IMG/VR virus record: IMGVR_UViG_3300045283_000127
Span: 1 to 40,322 of that record
Source of the DNA: a virus
Strand: one strand, 5' to 3'
DNA: 40,322 bases
Each line of letters starts with the position of its first letter. Within the stretch, counting starts at the first letter, position 1. Below, piece by piece: positions 6,896 through 37,200 of this stretch. The notes under the pieces were generated by a model. That model was not told the DNA's origin, did not search any database, and saw only the letters and a program-made list of their open reading frames with translations. A program made the translations under genes and the position numbers.

Positions 6896-7068
6896 AGGCG
6901 AGCCCTCAGCGGCCACCGCAGACTGTGACGCTGGCCGTGAACTTCACGCTGCTCAGAGCGCAGTGTCCGTGGTGCGGCGTCTGTGTGTCGGCGATTACGC
7001 CCGTCGCGCTAGAGCAGGCGATTGCGGACCATGAAGCCGCGGCGCATCCGGGGGTTCATGCCCACTGA
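6892..7068 (+). CDS. C2H2 zinc-finger mini-protein (copy A)
   Basis: A 58-residue protein. Its C-terminal part has Cys-X2-Cys-X18-His-X4-His ('CPWC' to 'HEAAAH'), a plausible zinc finger, and it ends in 'VHAH'. The mini-protein at 7249-7395 has exactly the same spacing and the same 'SAI' and 'VHAH' landmarks, so the two are paralogues. The stop lies inside the 15-mer GTTCATGCCCACTGA, which also carries the next start. The gene is coupled by ATGA to its upstream neighbour. DNA or RNA binding is inferred only from the zinc-finger pattern. Confidence 0.6.
   Translation: MKASPQRPPQTVTLAVNFTLLRAQCPWCGVCVSAITPVALEQAIADHEAAAHPGVHAH
7054..7068 (+). repeat. Gene-junction 15-mer, copy 1
   Basis: GTTCATGCCCACTGA ends one gene as Val-His-Ala-His-stop and starts the next as Met-Pro-Thr in another frame. 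Copy 2 (7381-7395) is identical and copy 3 (7676-7690) differs at one base. Confidence 0.9.
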
Positions 7069-7249
7069 CATTGACGACGGCGTATGTCCCGGTTGCGGTG
7101 GCACGGACGGCGCGTGTGATTGCTTCGACGACGACGAGGACGACATCATGCAGCATGACGACGATTGCCACATGCACAACGGCTCGTGTGGCAAGGCCGG
7201 ATCTGAAGGATGCGATTGGGAATGCCCAAATAGCAGGCTGCTACAGTGA
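7058..7249 (+). CDS. Cys- and Asp-rich mini-protein
   Basis: A 63-residue protein starting 'MPTDIDDG'. It has 'CPGC', 'CDCFDDDEDD', 'HDDDCHMHNGSC' and 'CDWEC', giving many possible metal ligands and a strongly acidic centre. The start lies inside the 15-mer that also ends copy A (11-nt overlap). A further upstream ATG at 7031 would extend into copy A and is less likely. The N-terminal 'MPT(D/E)' is shared with the genes starting at 7385 and 7680, because all three starts are provided by the same repeated junction. The function is unknown. Confidence 0.55.
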   Translation: MPTDIDDGVCPGCGGTDGACDCFDDDEDDIMQHDDDCHMHNGSCGKAGSEGCDWECPNSRLLQ

Positions 7250-7395
7250 TGAGTGAACTGATCCGCACGATCGTGGCGGCGCGATGTGCACGGTGCGGCC
7301 ATCCCCTCTCGGCTATCTCGAATCAGTCCGTGATTGACAGTGCGGACGCACATGACGATTACGCTCATCCGGAAACGATCGTTCATGCCCACTGA
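7249..7395 (+). CDS. C2H2 zinc-finger mini-protein (copy B)
   Basis: A 48-residue gene starting with a TGATG overlap. Its fingerprint is Cys-X2-Cys-X18-His-X4-His ('CARC' to 'HDDYAH'), identical in spacing to the gene at 6892-7068, with the shared 'CG', 'SAI', 'AD', 'HP' and terminal 'VHAH' features. The two copies flank the acidic mini-gene at 7058, so a gene-plus-junction unit seems to have been duplicated. It is probably a small metal-binding regulator, but the target is unknown. Confidence 0.6.
   Translation: MSELIRTIVAARCARCGHPLSAISNQSVIDSADAHDDYAHPETIVHAH
7381..7395 (+). repeat. Gene-junction 15-mer, copy 2
   Basis: Identical to copy 1. It ends zinc-finger copy B and starts the 101-residue gene at 7385. 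Confidence 0.9.
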
Positions 7396-7690
7396 GCCCT
7401 CGACGCTTTCGCAATGGACCTTCACGCGTGCCTTCGAGCATGACTATCGCTGGCGCGCCACAGTGCCATCGCTCATCACCGAGGCGCAGACTCTTTTACG
7501 CGAGAAGAATCTTGCGCCGCAGTTCGCGCCAGAGATGCCGCCGTTGAAAGACGGATTGCAGGGTTACATCAAACAGCCGTTCCGGGTGCTGTATCTGTGG
7601 GTGCCTGATTGGGCGATGAGCGAGGACGCGGGGAAGTTTGTGCTGCGCATTGACACCATGACCAGACCGATGGCCGTCCATGCCCACTGA
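7385..7690 (+). CDS. Hypothetical protein upstream of portal
   Basis: A 101-residue protein starting 'MPTEPSTLSQWTF' inside junction copy 2 and ending 'MAVHAH' inside copy 3. The middle contains 'FEHDYRWRATVPSLITEAQTLLREKNL' and 'LQGYIKQPFRVLYLWVPDWAM'. The body has no zinc-finger spacing, so it is not a paralogue of the mini-fingers even though its ends are the same. An upstream GTG at 7334 is possible but ignores the junction. The function is unknown; it is co-transcribed with the portal gene. Confidence 0.55.
   Translation: MPTEPSTLSQWTFTRAFEHDYRWRATVPSLITEAQTLLREKNLAPQFAPEMPPLKDGLQGYIKQPFRVLYLWVPDWAMSEDAGKFVLRIDTMTRPMAVHAH
7676..7690 (+). repeat. Gene-junction 15-mer, copy 3
   Basis: GTCCATGCCCACTGA differs from copies 1 and 2 at one base. 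It provides the stop of the 101-residue gene and the ATG of the portal gene ('MPTEPDDL'). Confidence 0.9.
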
Positions 7691-9962
7691 ACCGGATGAC
7701 CTGATCCGCGGGGCGCGCAAACGCTGGCAGAAGTGCGCCGAAGCGGAGAACGGACAACGCAAAAGGATCTTAGCCGCGAAGCTGTTCCGCGCTGGCGAAC
7801 AGTGGACGCCCGCGCTCAAAGTGCAACGCGAAGGCGGCCACGCCATTGCGGGGATGCCCGCCGTGCCGCCGCGCCCCTGCCTCGTCGTCGATCGCCTCTC
7901 GCAGCCAGTCCGGCAGACCTCCAACATCATCAAGAACGCCCAGTTCAGTTTTGACGTGATGCCGAACGGCGGCGGCGCGGATGACGATACGGCGGAAATC
8001 TTCAAGGGATACATGCGACGCGTGCACAACAATGCGCGCGGCGAATCGCCCGTCGAGTGGGCGGCCGACGGCGCCATCGAGGCTGGCCTCGGCTGGTTCC
8101 GGCTGCGCACCGAATACGTCCATGAAACGTGGGACGGCGACCCGAACGACCCGGAAGTCTTCGACCAGGAAATCCGCGAAGAGCGCATCACGAACAGTCT
8201 GACGGTCTACTGCGACCCGAGCTCGAGCCATCCGACGCGCCGCACCGCGCAATTCATGTTCATCACGGAAGACCTCGACAAAGACGAATTCACGCGGCAG
8301 TTTCCCGATGCGGATGTGCGCGGGCTCGAAGAGTTCATGGCGACCGGCGACATGGATGGCTGGGTGACGAATGACATCATTCGCATCGCCGAATACTGGC
8401 GCATCGAATATCAGGAACGCACGTTCTGCGAATTGGTAGACGGCCGCATCATCGAGAAGAGCGACGGCGTGAAGGTGCCGAAGGACCAGGTGAAGCGCGA
8501 GCGCGTGATGCAAGTGCCGCAGGTCAAGTGCGACAAAATCAACGCCTGCGAATCGCTGAAGTCCTACAAGTGGGTGGGCTCGCGCATTCCCATCTTCCCG
8601 ATTCTCGGCGAAGAACTGAACGTGGACGGCAAGCCGGTGCTGCGCGGCATCATTGACGAGGGCATGGACGCGCAGCGGATGGTGAACTACACCTATAGCG
8701 GCGCGATGGAGATTTTTGCGCTGTCGCCGAAGTCGCCCTACATCGTGGCCGAAGGGCAAATCGACGCCTACAAGGCGATGTGGCAGACGGCGAACATCTA
8801 CAACTACAGCGCGCTCTACTACACACCGCAGTCGATTGCGGGCGACCTCGTGCCTCCACCGCAGCGTCAGACCTACGAGGCGCCGATTCAGGCCGCCGTG
8901 GAGCTGATGCGGACGAGCGAAGAGGCCATCAAGGCGACGACTAGCACGGGCGATGCCTCGCTGGGCAACAGCAATCCGAACGAGCGCAGCGGCAAGGCGC
9001 TCCAGGCGCTCCAGGCGCAATCAGAACTGAGCAACAGCAACTATCCGGACAACGTGCGCCGCGCGCTGATTGCCGCGGCGGAGGAGATGGCGATTGTCAT
9101 CCCGAAGATTACGCGGCCGGGGCAAATCATCCAGATTCTCGGGCAGGATGACGAACCGAAACAGGTGATGGTCGGGAAGCCCTTTCAGCAGGGTCCGAAC
9201 GGTGTGCCGCAGGCGAGTCCGCCGGACATCACGCCGGAGATTGCGAAAGACCCGAAGAGCTTGCACAAGTTCTACGACCTGAACCACGGGCGGTATGCGG
9301 TGACGGTGACGGTCGGGAAAGCGAGCAGCACGAAGCGCGAAGAGGGCGCGATGGCGCTCGGGGCGTTGATTCCGCACCTACCGCCCGAGATGGCTGCCGT
9401 CGCCACACCGGATTACGTGGAGCAGTTGTCGTTTCCGGGCTCGCACAAGATTGCGGAGAAGTTGCGCAAGACGCTGCCGCCGCAGTTGCAGGACCAGGAC
9501 CAGCAGGCGCAGGTGCCGCCACAGGTGCAGGCGCAGATGCAGGCCATGCAGCAGCAGTTGCAGCAGGCGCATCAGATCATCCAGACGGATCAGGTCAAGC
9601 AGCAGGCGACGATTCAATCGGCGAAGGTGAAGGCTGACGCGGATATTCAGATTGCGCACCTGAACAACGCGGCACGGATTGAAATCGCTCGGATTGGCGC
9701 CGCGAAAGAGGCCATGAACGAGCAGGCCGAGGACGCCGAGGAGCGGCTCGCGACGGGACTGCAGTTGACGCACGAGCATGTGCAGGGGCAGCTCGATAGG
9801 GCGCATGAGGCGCAGATGGCGCAGATGGGCCACGCGCAGGCGTTGGAACAGGGCGCGCAGTCGGCTGCTGTCGGCCAGCAGTCGCAGCAGGCGGACCAGC
9901 AGCATCAGGCCGCAATGGCGCAGCAGGCGCAGGATGCGCAACAGACACAGGGGCAGGAATGA
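7680..9962 (+). CDS. Portal protein, P22 gp1-like
   Basis: A 760-residue protein with the long form typical of P22-like portals. The N-terminal part includes 'GEQWTP' and 'RPCLVVDRLSQPVRQTSNIIKN', followed by the wing and stem regions ('VYCDPSS', 'DIIRIAEYWRIE', 'DEGMDAQRMVNYTYSGAMEI') and 'ATTSTGDASLGN...ERSGKALQALQAQSE', a conserved portal segment. From about residue 600 the chain is Gln/Ala-rich helix, matching the C-terminal barrel coiled coil seen in P22. Twelve copies would form the DNA channel at one vertex, docking terminase during packaging and the gp4/gp10 neck afterwards. The start lies in a repeated junction, and the stop overlaps the next start by ATGA. Confidence 0.9.
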   Translation: MPTEPDDLIRGARKRWQKCAEAENGQRKRILAAKLFRAGEQWTPALKVQREGGHAIAGMPAVPPRPCLVVDRLSQPVRQTSNIIKNAQFSFDVMPNGGGADDDTAEIFKGYMRRVHNNARGESPVEWAADGAIEAGLGWFRLRTEYVHETWDGDPNDPEVFDQEIREERITNSLTVYCDPSSSHPTRRTAQFMFITEDLDKDEFTRQFPDADVRGLEEFMATGDMDGWVTNDIIRIAEYWRIEYQERTFCELVDGRIIEKSDGVKVPKDQVKRERVMQVPQVKCDKINACESLKSYKWVGSRIPIFPILGEELNVDGKPVLRGIIDEGMDAQRMVNYTYSGAMEIFALSPKSPYIVAEGQIDAYKAMWQTANIYNYSALYYTPQSIAGDLVPPPQRQTYEAPIQAAVELMRTSEEAIKATTSTGDASLGNSNPNERSGKALQALQAQSELSNSNYPDNVRRALIAAAEEMAIVIPKITRPGQIIQILGQDDEPKQVMVGKPFQQGPNGVPQASPPDITPEIAKDPKSLHKFYDLNHGRYAVTVTVGKASSTKREEGAMALGALIPHLPPEMAAVATPDYVEQLSFPGSHKIAEKLRKTLPPQLQDQDQQAQVPPQVQAQMQAMQQQLQQAHQIIQTDQVKQQATIQSAKVKADADIQIAHLNNAARIEIARIGAAKEAMNEQAEDAEERLATGLQLTHEHVQGQLDRAHEAQMAQMGHAQALEQGAQSAAVGQQSQQADQQHQAAMAQQAQDAQQTQGQE

Positions 9963-32621: not shown

Positions 32622-32714
32622 CTACCAGAATCGGCTGACCAGCCAGACGGCCAGCAAGATCAGCACGTAGCCGACGAGGATCAGTTCAAGGTCATCCGAC
32701 AGGCGCGGCTTCAT
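32622..32714 (-). CDS. 30-residue single-pass membrane protein
   Basis: A small gene. ATG 32714 overlaps the methyltransferase stop as ATGA and the frame ends at TAG 32622. The peptide starts 'MKPRLSDDLELILV' and has one hydrophobic helix 'LILVGYVLILLAVWLV' ending 'SRFW'. The coupling and membrane helix support it. The function is unknown. Confidence 0.5.
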   Translation of the reverse strand: MKPRLSDDLELILVGYVLILLAVWLVSRFW

Positions 32715-33445
32715 CGCTTACCGAATAGCGGCGCTTGTTCGGCTGGCGCATCGTCTAGCGACAGGGGCAGCGCCTCTTGCTCTAATCGCTTAATGGCTAT
32801 TTCAACGTAGCGTTCTTCGATCTCCACGCCGACGCACTGACGCCCGAGACGTTTCGCGGCCACCAACGTGGTGCCGCTGCCCATGAACGGGTCGAACACC
32901 GTCCGCACGTCCTGTGGAGCCTGCATAAGCGCCCATCGCATCACTGGCTCGGGTTTCATTGTGGGATGTAGTCGCGGCTCCTTTGGCACTCCAGCTCCCT
33001 GCAACATCCCATTCCAGCGAAATGTGAGTTTACGAACGGCGCTATCGAGATTCGTCCATGCGAGTTCGCAGTCTGCGTAGTCCGTGCCTTCGTTCGCTTT
33101 GTCCCACACCAGCCAGCAGCGGCTCGGCGGTAGGTCGTAGTAGTTCCCACCGAAGACGATCTGATATTTCGTGAGCGCCCTGAGTCTCGGGAGCACGTCC
33201 GCGCAGGTGTCACCATCCCATGTCACCTCTCCGAAATCGGTCGCGTCAAGCACCGCGTAGCCGTTCGATTTCGTGCGACGGCCCGACCCGACCCGACCCG
33301 ACTTCGCAACCCCGATCCCATACGGCGGATCAGTCAACAGCAGATCGAACAGTTTGTCGCCGTAGTGTGGTGCGAAGTCTTCGATTACGTCTCGGCAATC
33401 CGCGTTAAAAATCGTCACGCCGCTCTGCTCATAGTAGGGCGTCAC
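32711..33445 (-). CDS. DNA N6-adenine / N4-cytosine methyltransferase
   Basis: A 244-residue protein. The GTG at 33445 overlaps the previous stop as GTGA. Motif IV is 'DPPYG' (39-43) and motif I is 'DPFMGSGTT' (185-193), preceded by 'HPTMKPEPVMRWAL', a beta-class methyltransferase layout in which the catalytic motif comes first. It transfers a methyl group from AdoMet to an adenine N6 or cytosine N4 in phage DNA, probably to evade restriction. A 20-bp run of four CCGAC repeats (33283-33302) lies in the coding frame at 'SGRVGSGRRTK' after motif IV. Gain or loss of one unit would shift the frame. Confidence 0.85.
   Translation of the reverse strand: MTPYYEQSGVTIFNADCRDVIEDFAPHYGDKLFDLLLTDPPYGIGVAKSGRVGSGRRTKSNGYAVLDATDFGEVTWDGDTCADVLPRLRALTKYQIVFGGNYYDLPPSRCWLVWDKANEGTDYADCELAWTNLDSAVRKLTFRWNGMLQGAGVPKEPRLHPTMKPEPVMRWALMQAPQDVRTVFDPFMGSGTTLVAAKRLGRQCVGVEIEERYVEIAIKRLEQEALPLSLDDAPAEQAPLFGKR
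33283..33302 (-). repeat. Pentanucleotide tandem repeat (CCGAC)4 inside the methyltransferase gene
   Basis: Four perfect 5-bp units plus a partial one. Because 5 is not a multiple of 3, copy-number change truncates the enzyme, the usual architecture of phase-variable methyltransferases. The tract is short, so the rate may be low. Confidence 0.75.
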
Positions 33446-33618
33446 GGGTGCTCCTGGCGGAAGATGGCAATCTCGATGTCGAGGCGCAGCGCGTTCACCG
33501 CATCCACGAGCGCGGGCTGGTCGAGTCGCAGTTCGACGCCGCAGGATGGGCACTCTTGATACTCGGCGCCGTGCGCGGTCATCTGCTCCAGGCGCACGAC
33601 AATCTCGGCCAGCGTCAT
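33442..33618 (-). CDS. 58-residue protein with CxxC
   Basis: A small gene. It starts in an ATGA overlap and ends in the GTGA that starts the methyltransferase. The protein is helical with 'CPSC' at residues 23-26 ('LEQMTAHGAEYQECPSCGVELR'). One CxxC pair could bind zinc in a dimer. The overlap suggests translation coupled to the methyltransferase. Confidence 0.5.
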   Translation of the reverse strand: MTLAEIVVRLEQMTAHGAEYQECPSCGVELRLDQPALVDAVNALRLDIEIAIFRQEHP

Positions 33619-33845
33619 GGCTGGGCCGATGTCGGCTGCCCATCGGCGCCGTTCGCCTTCTTCAGTTTGTTCGCCGCGCGCGTTGCCACCTGTTTGCGGA
33701 TGGCTGCGGCGCTGCGCTTCCGCTTCGTAACGACCGGGGCATCTTCAGCAGGCAGCATCGGCTGCAACGCCGCAATCGCGGCATTCAGGCGATCGCGTTC
33801 AACAACGAGCGAGTCGAGCACGGCGCGGAGATTCGGCATTTTCAT
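33615..33845 (-). CDS. Small coiled and basic protein
   Basis: A 76-residue protein. ATG 33845 is in an ATGA overlap and is preferred to the longer frame. It contains 'LDSLVVERDRLNAAIAALQPML', a short coil seen in many phage early mini-proteins, then a basic stretch 'TKRKRSAAAIRKQVATRAANKLKKANG' that could contact nucleic acid. The function is unknown. Confidence 0.5.
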   Translation of the reverse strand: MKMPNLRAVLDSLVVERDRLNAAIAALQPMLPAEDAPVVTKRKRSAAAIRKQVATRAANKLKKANGADGQPTSAQP

Positions 33846-34071: not shown

Positions 34072-34527
34072 TCAGAACGCCACGTCCGCATCATCGACCA
34101 CCGGCGCATCGCTCGGGAAGCCTGCCGTATCGACCGGCGGCGTCCAGCCCGCGCGCATCCGTGCCGCCCAGCCGCGGGCGCGGCTCGCGTCGAGCGCCTG
34201 ATACGTCTGCTTCTTCGCGTCCGGTTCCAGCGTGTTGAAATAGTCGAGCCGGTCGGCCACGAGCTCGAGATAGGCCGGCGGGCACTGACTGAACGGCTTG
34301 CCGAGTTGGTCCTCCCCTGACCAGTCGCGCGGGCTCTTCGCACGGACCACGGGATCGCCATACTTCCCGTCGAGGTCAGAGTCTGACGCCACGCGCGGGA
34401 TGGTGCGGCCCGTCGCCGCCGGGGCCGTCTGGGGCACGCAGCCGAAGTGCGCGACCAGCAGCTTCAGGCTCGCGTCGATGGACTTCAGGGTGTCGATGAC
34501 GTCTTGCGCGGAGGCTTTCTCGGTCAT
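34072..34527 (-). CDS. Hypothetical protein linked to the recombination module
   Basis: A 151-residue protein. ATG 34527 is used because it overlaps the HNH stop as ATGA. A ribosome site (AAAGGA) lies inside the HNH 3' end. It has an N-terminal helix 'AQDVIDTLKSIDASLKLLVAHFG', a middle with 'KYGDPVVRAKSPRDWSGEDQLGKPFSQCPPAYLELVADRLDYF', and a C-terminal 'ARARGWAARMRAG'. This 'cpPeYL..lA..lD...' plus 'ARGWA.R...G' pattern recurs in phage proteins encoded near annealing recombinases. It is probably a partner of the exonuclease-annealase, but no activity is established. Confidence 0.55.
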   Translation of the reverse strand: MTEKASAQDVIDTLKSIDASLKLLVAHFGCVPQTAPAATGRTIPRVASDSDLDGKYGDPVVRAKSPRDWSGEDQLGKPFSQCPPAYLELVADRLDYFNTLEPDAKKQTYQALDASRARGWAARMRAGWTPPVDTAGFPSDAPVVDDADVAF

Positions 34528-34994
34528 CTGACGTCCTTTGGGGCATACACTCGATCCCATGAATGACCGAGCACAATTTTGCTGATGGTGGCTGGTGATA
34601 GGCCGAACTCTAGGCGTAGAGTTTTTTGTTCACCACGTTTGCCGGTATAGCGGCGTCTGATATCAGCGACTTGTTCATTCGTAAGTTTGGCGTTGCAATT
34701 ACGCTCGCCGTGATCGCTTCGTCGCCGTCTGTTCGTGCATTGTTCTTTAGCGGTGGCCCACCGCACATTCCCGGGTTCATAGTTGCCGTCGTTATCCGGC
34801 CATCGGTCGATCGAATAGGCGAGAGATGGACGTGGGCCGATATACGCGAGAAACGCGGTGTAGTCATGTTTCCATGCATCACACACGACAATGCCTCGTC
34901 CGCCGTAAGCAGGAAACTTATGGTTGCTCGTGTTGTAACATCGCGTTTTCATCGCGCGCCATACACGATATTCAGGACAATCACGTCTGCGCAT
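34524..34994 (-). CDS. HNH homing endonuclease within the recombination operon
   Basis: A 156-residue protein related to the HNH gene at 26554-27213: 'YRVWRAMKTRCYNT', 'YGGRGIVVCDAW', 'SIDRWPDNDGNYEPGNVRWAT' and 'NRRRR'. It lacks the N-terminal zinc part. The C-terminal 'NAKLTNEQVADIRRRY...LRLEFGLSPATISKIVLGHSW' is an HTH of the type fused to phage HNH enzymes. It begins 3 nt after the exonuclease-annealase stop and ends in ATGA with the next gene, so it is co-transcribed on the same strand, unlike the two HNH genes in the structural arm. Confidence 0.85.
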   Translation of the reverse strand: MRRRDCPEYRVWRAMKTRCYNTSNHKFPAYGGRGIVVCDAWKHDYTAFLAYIGPRPSLAYSIDRWPDNDGNYEPGNVRWATAKEQCTNRRRRSDHGERNCNAKLTNEQVADIRRRYTGKRGEQKTLRLEFGLSPATISKIVLGHSWDRVYAPKDVR

Positions 34995-34997
34995 CTC

Positions 34998-36632
34998 TCA
35001 CTCCATCTCCTCGCCTGAAATCAGCCCATGGGTGACATCGGGGTAAACCAACCGCGCGAGCTTGGCCCCGGCCCGTGCCACTAACATGTCCGCGCAATTG
35101 CGACCCCAGCCGCTCGCATCCCACGCCTTATCGCCCTTCGCCCATGCCGTGCGCCCTTCCTGCACGGTATAGGTAAGCGCAATGGGCGTCGGATCGCCCT
35201 TTCGATGCGTTTCGAACGTCGCTTTCTCGGCCGTGCGTTCGGTGCAGCGAAAATAGAGCGCGAGTCCGCTCTTGAGCACCAGAGCTCGAATCAGGTCAGC
35301 CTTCATGGTCGGACGTCCGTCGATGTTGTCGAACGCTCGTAGGCTTTGCATCGCCTGCATGCCGAATTCGCGTCCCGAGAGAACCACAGCGAGCACGGCG
35401 GCCGGTGAGCCCCATGCGCTGAACAGTCGTGAGGCGGCAAGGTCACTCGCCATCGCTTTGGCTTGTCCGTAGCTGCGCGGCTCAAGTTGCATCGCAAATT
35501 CGTCTGACGGCGGGGGCAGCACCTCAGGCTCAAGGACGCGCGCCGGAGGCGGCAAGGTGATGGTCGTCGCCTGCGAGGTGACCGTGCCGGGTCGTCCCTG
35601 CTGCACCTCGGCGGCGATGCGCTGCCGGATGGCCTCGTTGGCGGCCTGCTGGGCGGCGTTGGGTGCGAAGGTGGCCACGTCAGGCTCTGCGGCTACCGGC
35701 ACCACTGGCGTCGTTCTGGGGGCATACTGAGCCGCTGGCGGGGCCATCTGGGGCACGACGTCGAGCGGTAGCGGCACCTGGGGCGCTTCGATGGTCAGTT
35801 CAGTCATGGTCTCCTCAATGTCGGCGGCGATGCCGGCATGATCGCGGGTGGCAAAGTCGGTCGGCTGGCGCTCCTTGAGCACCTCGTCAAACGGCAGCGG
35901 AACGTCGGTCCGCAGGGCAATCAACTCGCGCACAGTTGCCAGCCGGGGCTGCAACTCCTGCAGTGCCTTGGCGATCGCGGGCGTGAAGCCGTTGCCGGCC
36001 ATCGCCGATACGAGTGCATCGTCCAGGTTGCCGTAGAGGTCGAGAATCTCGGCGGCGCGTTTCGGGCCGATGCCCTTGGCGCCGCGGATGTTGTCGCTGG
36101 CGTCGCCCACCAGCGCGAGGTAGTCGCGCATCTGGTGCGGCCAGACGCCGAACTTCGCCTTCACCTCGTCAGGGCCGACGAGCGCGCCGTCCCGCAGGCT
36201 CTTCAGACTGACCGTGTGCGAGACGAGCTGCGCGAGGTCTTTGTCGGCCGTGGCGATGAGGAAGGTGCCCGGCATCTCGGCCCCGTGAAACATCGTGGTC
36301 GCGGACGCGATGATATCGTCGGCCTCGTAGCCCTTCACGCCCCAGATCGGGAAGCCATCGGCGCGTAGGCGGTCGGCCGCAAGCGCCAGTTGGTGCCCGA
36401 TGACCGCGTTGTTGTCCTTGTCGCGCTGCGCTTTGTAGGTCGGGTCCACGTCGCGCCGGAAGTAGGGCGGGCTGTCGAGGCAGATGGCGCAGTGCGGCTG
36501 GCCGCTGGCGAGGGCGCGCACGCGCTCGACGGTTTTGGTGCTGGTGGCGTCGGGGTCGGGGTCATTGCCGCTGGTGTGGAACATCAGATGGGTGATGCTC
36601 GACAGGTCAATCAGGAGGATGTTGATCGCCAT
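34998..36632 (-). CDS. Fused FEN-type 5'-3' exonuclease and RecT-like annealing protein
   Basis: A single 544-residue frame. Residues 1-270 are a 5' nuclease: Asp9 in 'LLIDLSS', Asp53 in 'ICLDSPP', 'FRRDVDPTYKAQR' (58-70), 'GYEADD' (101-106), 'TADKD' (128-132), and 'GDASDNIRGAKGIGPKRAAEIL' (176-197, with a helix-3-turn-helix). All carboxylates of the Pol I/T5 flap nuclease family are present. Residues ~285-375 are a Pro/Ala-rich linker. Residues 378-544 ('SYGQAKAMASDLAASRLF', 'VVLSGREFGMQAMQSLRAFDNIDGRPTMKADLIRALV', 'WGRNCADMLVARAGAKLARLVYPDVTHGL') match RecT-type single-strand annealing proteins. These are normally separate genes. The start overlaps the previous stop as TAATG. This polypeptide would chew ends and anneal the strand. 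Confidence 0.8.
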   Translation of the reverse strand: MAINILLIDLSSITHLMFHTSGNDPDPDATSTKTVERVRALASGQPHCAICLDSPPYFRRDVDPTYKAQRDKDNNAVIGHQLALAADRLRADGFPIWGVKGYEADDIIASATTMFHGAEMPGTFLIATADKDLAQLVSHTVSLKSLRDGALVGPDEVKAKFGVWPHQMRDYLALVGDASDNIRGAKGIGPKRAAEILDLYGNLDDALVSAMAGNGFTPAIAKALQELQPRLATVRELIALRTDVPLPFDEVLKERQPTDFATRDHAGIAADIEETMTELTIEAPQVPLPLDVVPQMAPPAAQYAPRTTPVVPVAAEPDVATFAPNAAQQAANEAIRQRIAAEVQQGRPGTVTSQATTITLPPPARVLEPEVLPPPSDEFAMQLEPRSYGQAKAMASDLAASRLFSAWGSPAAVLAVVLSGREFGMQAMQSLRAFDNIDGRPTMKADLIRALVLKSGLALYFRCTERTAEKATFETHRKGDPTPIALTYTVQEGRTAWAKGDKAWDASGWGRNCADMLVARAGAKLARLVYPDVTHGLISGEEME

Positions 36633-36990: not shown

Positions 36991-37200
36991 TTACCTGTTG
37001 CGCCACCGATTGCGGTCATGCTCACGCAAACGGTCACTCGGCGCCATCTCGCCACGACGTTCTGCGGTGGAATTGCCGTCAGTGTCACGCGTGCCGCGGC
37101 ACTTCGGATAATCCTTGCAGCCCCAAAATCGCTGACCCGTCGTCTTGTTCGCACGGCTGACCATTGGGCCGCCGCATTCAGGACAGAGCGTGTCTTCCAT
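36991..37200 (-). CDS. Topoisomerase-type C4 zinc-finger protein
   Basis: A 69-residue protein. 'LCPECGGPMVSRANKTTGQRFWGCKDYPKCRGTRD' is the Cys4 finger found at the C-terminus of bacterial topoisomerase I ('CP.CG..m........g..FwgCs.YP.Cr'). Here it stands alone with a basic, hydrophilic tail. It may bind single-stranded DNA. It begins directly next to the stop of the gene before it. Confidence 0.7.
   Translation of the reverse strand: MEDTLCPECGGPMVSRANKTTGQRFWGCKDYPKCRGTRDTDGNSTAERRGEMAPSDRLREHDRNRWRNR

Follow-up and report, generated by a model that had tools for sequence, protein, structure and literature searches.

A conserved phage gene family joining a flap-type 5' nuclease to a RecT/Red-beta-type annealing core in one reading frame

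Introduction

In lambda Red and RecET the exonuclease and the annealing protein are two proteins, and the locus described here raises the question of whether a phage can hold both in a single gene. The window, that is, the whole stretch of DNA that was analysed, is an IMG/VR record of 40322 bases. From its letters, the original prediction had placed at positions 34998-36632 one uninterrupted frame of 544 residues with a complete 5' nuclease active site of the Pol I/T5 flap family, a Pro/Ala linker and a RecT-type C-terminal domain, and it had called this pairing unusual since the nuclease is not of the lambda-Exo or RecE type. We analysed the two halves of the protein, the extent of the fusion family, its genomic context and the rival explanations of what such a protein would do.

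Results

Gene, frame and domain layout

The frame was read on the minus strand, which had been left unstated, from an ATG at 36632 to a stop codon at 35000-34998, with 544 codons and no internal stop, so that both the predicted coordinates and the predicted length were correct. The opposite (plus) strand over 34998-36632 contains only shorter, overlapping frames. The protein consists of a nuclease domain (residues 1-262, positions 35847-36632, minus strand), a disordered linker rich in proline, alanine and glutamate (residues 263-381, positions 35490-35846, minus strand) and a RecT/Red-beta-type annealing core (residues 382-544, positions 35001-35489, minus strand), and it stops at the end of this core. 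An AlphaFold2 model built on a 12-member alignment was confident in the nuclease, mostly confident in the C-terminal domain and disordered in the linker, most of which (residues 260-324 and 346-382) had a pLDDT below 50; the predicted linker is thus real. Its length varied from 41 to 119 residues across the 27 fusions measured, and its sequence was unconserved while its presence was constant.

The nuclease half

Residues 1-262 have beyond doubt the sequence of a complete 5' nuclease of the Pol I/T5 flap family, with a PIN-like core, a helix-3-turn-helix and all the acidic metal ligands, and would be expected to have the corresponding activity. PF02739 was matched by residues 5-162 (E 1e-23, 84.2 bits against a Pfam cut-off of 34.3) and PF01367 by residues 163-250 (E 9e-20, 71.4 bits against a cut-off of 40), the exonuclease profile phrog_107 matched at 5e-31, and the PDB sequences matched were those of the Taq polymerase 5' nuclease, E. 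coli ExoIX and T5 exonuclease. The residues and clusters on which the original prediction relied (Asp9, Asp53, GYEADD, TADKD and GDASDN) were all found, and the active site aligned with that of Taq. Residues D9, D53, K67, R70, E103, D105, D106, D130, D132, D177 and D180 were invariant in 27 of the 27 fusions checked, which indicates that the nuclease is under constraint and is no relic. The DNA polymerase A domain (PF00476) was not found in the 544-residue protein, and a remnant of Pol I was ruled out, there being no polymerase domain in the phage record.

The annealing half

The assignment of residues 382-544 as a RecT/Red-beta annealing core, with a predicted annealing activity, holds on profiles and on the modelled fold. 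With the annealing domain alone as query, residues 384-543 matched two RecT-like families, phrog_4171 (5e-10) and phrog_561 (2e-6), while Pfam RecT (PF03837) gave 15.8 bits against a cut-off of 24 (E 0.01) on the domain of the window. The evidence for this half is therefore weaker when a single sequence is considered, but it is clear at the family level, since both RecT-like PHROGs were matched by 12 of the 12 members of the first alignment (best 2.8e-23); PF03837 was matched at E <= 0.1 by nine of the 12 (best 1.9e-6). Profile alignment showed an end signature common to Red-beta and the fusions, W..[HN]P..M...A....ARL...G.Y..[ED]E.

Foldseek with the whole model first retrieved ExoIX, Taq, T5 and FEN relatives, followed by lambda Red-beta (7ujl, probability 1.00); with the C-terminal domain alone (pLDDT 84.7 when modelled by itself), 7ujl was the only match below 0.001, again at a probability of 1.00. 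VIA-align comparison of the predicted model gave Z scores of 8.7 for Red-beta 7ujl (139 residues), 6.7 for LiRecT (Listeria RecT) and 6.5 for RAD52, of which only the first exceeds the tool's middling range; all three top matches are annealing proteins, the pattern expected of a true relative. PDB matches between the annealing profile and designed repeat proteins were rejected, since they consisted of short repeats in which no stretch was significant by itself. The profiles, the signature motif and the Red-beta-like predicted fold thus bear out the predicted RecT-type domain.

Extent and origin of the fusion family

A scan with the window protein recovered one full-length relative, 54% identical, and a scan with the alignment of two sequences recovered 12 full-length contigs, all with unbroken frames, while the 12-member alignment detected further relatives down to 27-30% identity. 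A scan with only the annealing domain gave 68 loci, of which 62 were new: 58 were fused in frame, three were cut by a contig end and one stood alone. Of the new loci, 59 in IMG/VR were thus intact, and 58 of these were fused. The search for the same two-domain order elsewhere, which the original prediction had proposed, yielded 63 non-redundant viral and bacterial sequences with both domains in one frame (26 + 37 after removal of close copies, the window included). A stop or frameshift in the linker, named beforehand as a sign against the fusion, is absent, and many independent contigs have the linker in an unbroken frame. The unusual pairing of a flap-type nuclease with an annealing domain is thus confirmed by the profiles, the predicted fold and a large conserved family.

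The fusion gene was also present in two bacterial assemblies, a Thermoanaerobaculia bin (L100, JAGOBQ010000487.1) and a Myxococcota bin (L101, JAICYS010000010.1). These are perhaps prophages or binned phages, and they hint at hosts. The BFVD/UniProt entry A0A6J5MUB0 (uncultured Caudovirales phage, 462 aa) was 38% identical to the window model over 547 columns and is apparently the same fusion; its name, 'PIN_53EXO domain containing protein', covers the nuclease half only and leaves the annealing half unnamed. The phage and plasmid collections yielded no record in which 80% or more of the full fusion was covered. In the open-access library that was searched, no report of a flap-nuclease/annealase fusion was found, and a prior mention is possible.

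In trees of both halves the fusions clustered far beyond chance. Stand-alone copies from bacterial genomes lay among the deeper fusions L030, L031 and L033 in the annealing-domain tree, and the fusions in the nuclease tree were mixed only with two viral rows that are not joined to RecT, one of them L032, and stood apart from the cellular Pol I nucleases. One single fusion event as the origin of the family is not established by these sequence trees.

A second pairing

Contig L032 carries, at positions 7001-8725, a flap-type nuclease whose fusion partner, joined to it by a charged linker of great length, belongs to a different annealing family, phrog_3290 (4e-50). The nuclease domain of L032 grouped with the nuclease of fusion L037 (support 100/99), and the C-terminal domain shared about 55-57% identity with proteins from Streptomyces phage ZL12 and from mycobacteriophages. 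Besides L032, no further contig pairing a flap-type nuclease with phrog_3290 was found. One nuclease type is therefore joined to two annealing families, and we argue from this that the combination of nuclease and annealing is what was selected.

Phage context and stand-alone relatives

The window contains head genes of P22-like families, namely a portal (phrog_156), a major head protein (phrog_283) and a connector protein (phrog_578), and it also encodes a large terminase and a replication initiation protein; many related contigs are 39-45 kb long. A DNA methyltransferase gene (positions 32711-33643, minus strand; phrog_67, 1e-40) and a gene for a small zinc-ribbon protein resembling the C-terminal finger of topoisomerase I (positions 36991-37200, minus strand; PF01396, 2e-11) were also observed.

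In 14 fusion phage records, possibly incomplete, we found no exonuclease of the YqaJ, RecE-type (phrog_412) or DUF3799 families, YqaJ being the Pfam family of lambda Exo, and neither Pol A (PF00476) nor SSB. Each of these records had exactly one RecT-like domain, which was always fused. The nearest named stand-alone annealing relatives were those of Thermobifida, Gordonia, Propionibacterium, Salinibacter and other phages. A RecE-type exonuclease gene was located, in each of the four actinophages examined, directly upstream of the annealing gene or one gene removed from it (its type checked against phrog_412 in three of the four), so that the fusion reproduces the order of this operon with a different nuclease. 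The Salinibacter stand-alone copy had no recognised exonuclease next door, and no split pair of flap-nuclease and RecT genes was found beside the stand-alone relatives within the stretches fetched.

Absence of a C-terminal tail

Comparison of the fusions with stand-alone relatives showed that 0-15 residues follow the annealing core in the former and 49-263 in 14 of 15 of the latter, the exception being L191 with a tail of 10 residues. The C-terminal region of Red-beta is dispensable for annealing, is required for recombination and contributes to contact with the exonuclease, and a Red-beta truncated to remove this tail anneals and does not recombine (PMC5052646). By analogy, the covalent tether of the fusions would render a tail-mediated contact with the exonuclease dispensable. 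Since tail-less Red-beta anneals without recombining, the second function of the tail, perhaps contact with a host factor, must be provided otherwise in the fusion.

A probable nested start

The linkers of the fusion alignment often have a methionine and a run of acidic residues at their beginning. For the window this methionine is encoded by an in-frame ATG at codon 276, which would give a free annealing protein of 269 residues (positions 34998-35807, minus strand), about as long as known members of the RecT and Red-beta families. A candidate ribosome-binding site, GAGGAG (positions 35811-35816, minus strand), precedes it in the arrangement GAGGAG-ACC-ATG, with a Shine-Dalgarno energy that is only moderate (-5.6 kcal/mol); the start signal is one of the family.

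An in-frame ATG occurred within 20 codons past the end of the nuclease in 20 of the first 26 fusions. In this set, 41% of the post-nuclease ATGs (those up to 20 codons from the nuclease end) had a Shine-Dalgarno energy of -8 or lower; the corresponding figures were 0 of 81 for ATGs of the nuclease, 0 of 26 for those of the remaining linker and 3% for those of the annealing domain. Such a site was present at 11 loci, compared with 1.5 +/- 1.2 when codons were shuffled (maximum 6 in 1000) and 7.0 +/- 1.6 with synonymous codons. With the criterion unchanged, the 37 new non-redundant fusions gave 8 loci, compared with 2.0 +/- 1.3 by codon shuffling (maximum 7), and 19 of 1000 synonymous sets reached 8. 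When the sets were pooled, 17 of 49 first post-nuclease ATGs were at -8 or lower, against the 9.3 +/- 2.2 expected from synonymous codons, in sequences that are related and hence incompletely independent. By mean energy, pairing at the first post-nuclease ATG was stronger than expected from the amino acids encoded there (z -3.0), while ATGs in the nuclease, the rest of the linker and the annealing domain paired more weakly than expected (z +4.9, +3.0 and +3.9, respectively). Shine-Dalgarno pairing is thus favoured at one place and avoided elsewhere, as an internal start predicts.

A post-nuclease ATG was missing in 14 of the 63 fusions, and the nested start was absent or weak in some members. 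From these sequence statistics, an in-frame nested start probably gives a free annealing protein in many members of the family, so that some annealing subunits could be free of a nuclease. A peptide motif, DI[DEN]x[AT][ML]x[TS][LVI], was present in 18 of the 63 linkers and nowhere else in the proteins (codons 271-279 of the window, Met276 included), and could possibly be a binding motif. That Met276 also has a place in this motif, like the missing or weak starts, counts against the nested start.

A conserved companion gene downstream

A conserved gene at positions 34072-34527 (minus strand) encodes a protein with an acidic, aromatic C-terminal tip, DDADVAF, for which no Pfam or PHROG family and no PDB chain was matched. 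The tips of its relatives include DDDVPF, DDDIPF, DDEIPF, ADDIPF and DSEIPF, and the E. coli SSB ends in DDDIPF. A relative of this companion was located close downstream on the same strand, mostly within 1 kb, at 69 of 97 annealing-domain loci (copies included), while none was found among the fetched loci without an annealing domain. Twenty-three of 51 distinct companions ended in F, compared with 3.4% of background frames, and many of the others ended in W. Judging by the tip, the companion may serve the phage as an ssDNA-binding protein or mimic SSB. The fusion gene and the companion are separated in the window by an HNH endonuclease gene (positions 34524-34994, minus strand; phrog_374, 2e-34), which is absent at that place in the closest relative, L002, and may therefore be a mobile insertion. 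The probable nested start and the companion with its SSB-like tip are two unreported features.

Discussion

The nuclease-annealase fusion is real and conserved, and it makes functional sense as a relative, in one gene, of the exonuclease/annealase recombinases, predicted to work like lambda Red/RecET. We consider it likely that the gene specifies a single-strand-annealing recombinase in itself, composed of a nuclease, a tethered annealing core and a probable nested product, and we infer its enzymatic activities, the order of events and the stoichiometry as follows. The N-terminal flap-family nuclease would strip the 5'-ended strand at phage DNA ends, nicks or flaps, and the tethered RecT/Red-beta core would take up the emerging 3' strand and then anneal a complementary strand to it. 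The long flexible linker would stand in for the contact between exonuclease and annealase that lambda makes partly via the C-terminal tail of Red-beta, and the nested start after the nuclease would supply free annealing subunits to an oligomer or filament without a nuclease on each subunit. Resection and annealing would in this way be coupled in cis, a suggestion which is strengthened by the lack of YqaJ, RecE-type and DUF3799 exonucleases in the 14 fusion phages, by the missing tail and by the second pairing in L032.

A broader proposal is that this is a widespread phage lineage in which one gene gives two products (the fusion and a nested free annealing protein) beside a companion with an SSB-like tip, in which a covalent tether replaces a protein-protein contact, and whose flap-type nuclease means that exonuclease/annealase recombinases arose more than once from unrelated nucleases. 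For this proposal taken as a whole we see the chances as evenly balanced.

The strongest alternative, unlikely in our estimation, is that strands are first annealed at the phage replication fork and that the nuclease then clears away the remaining 5' flaps or RNA primers, with no resection of ends. Nucleases of the flap family often act on flaps or nicks and are not processive end resectors, which counts against an end-resecting recombinase, and the nuclease of the fusions is closest to the Pol I/T5 enzymes that cut 5' flaps. The fusion records contain no phage-encoded Pol I, so that a phage flap enzyme could serve replication, and the lagging strand is where Red recombination takes place (PMC5052646). 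However, bacterial hosts generally own a Pol I, the strict fusion to an annealing domain is left unexplained by a trimming role in itself, and the fusion matches the gene order and the unit of the exonuclease-plus-annealase operons of its relatives.

It is very improbable that the annealing domain merely targets the nuclease to DNA, for instance in the breakdown of host DNA, without annealing. The domain is indeed short and lacks the C-terminal tail, and Pfam RecT is below its cut-off in the window member, but the core has the fold and the signature of Red-beta, the nested start would yield a free annealing protein, and the different annealing family behind the same nuclease type in L032 points to annealing as the selected function. 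That an assembly or sequencing error joined two genes is next to impossible: apart from the metagenomic source of the record nothing was found to support it, and it is already refuted by a conserved family in which the same fused frame recurs in many independent contigs from different metagenomes and in two bacterial assemblies, and in which a deposited viral protein (A0A6J5MUB0) can be aligned along nearly its whole length.

An annealing recombinase in a single chain would bear on an open question of lambda Red, which is how the 3' strand exposed by the exonuclease is passed on to its annealing partner, since a single chain allows direct tests with mutants. Mismatched pairs of exonuclease and annealase fail, and RecE and Red-alpha cannot swap partners (PMC5052646); the need for matched pairs therefore limits recombineering, and a self-contained single-gene recombinase could ease this limit. 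The existence of the family further suggests that this task has also been taken on by nucleases with no relation to lambda Exo and RecE, and proteins annotated merely as '5'-3' exonuclease' gain a likely function from it.

Comparison with known systems showed that the RecE/RecT-type pairs of actinophages (Gordonia phage SmokingBunny gp54/gp55 and Thermobifida phage P1312_077/078) have a related annealing domain (about 25-37% identity) and an upstream nuclease gene, the same order as in the fusion. Unlike the fusion, they consist of separate genes, with a RecE-type exonuclease (phrog_412) and an annealing protein that has a C-terminal tail. The Pol I 5' nuclease, T5 exonuclease (D15) and ExoIX/Xni have the same nuclease fold and active site as the fusion, which differs from them in having no polymerase domain and in being joined to an annealing domain. 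Lambda Red (lambda Exo and Red-beta) likewise combines a 5' nuclease with an annealing protein of the Red-beta fold, and the structure of Red-beta 1-177 was matched at a Z of 8.7. The fusion departs from lambda Red and RecET, which are defined by two proteins, in holding exonuclease and annealing protein in one frame with a flap-type nuclease; compared with lambda Red, it is one chain instead of two proteins, its nuclease is of the flap family and not a PD-(D/E)XK enzyme like lambda Exo, it has no Red-beta C-terminal tail, and it has a probable nested start.
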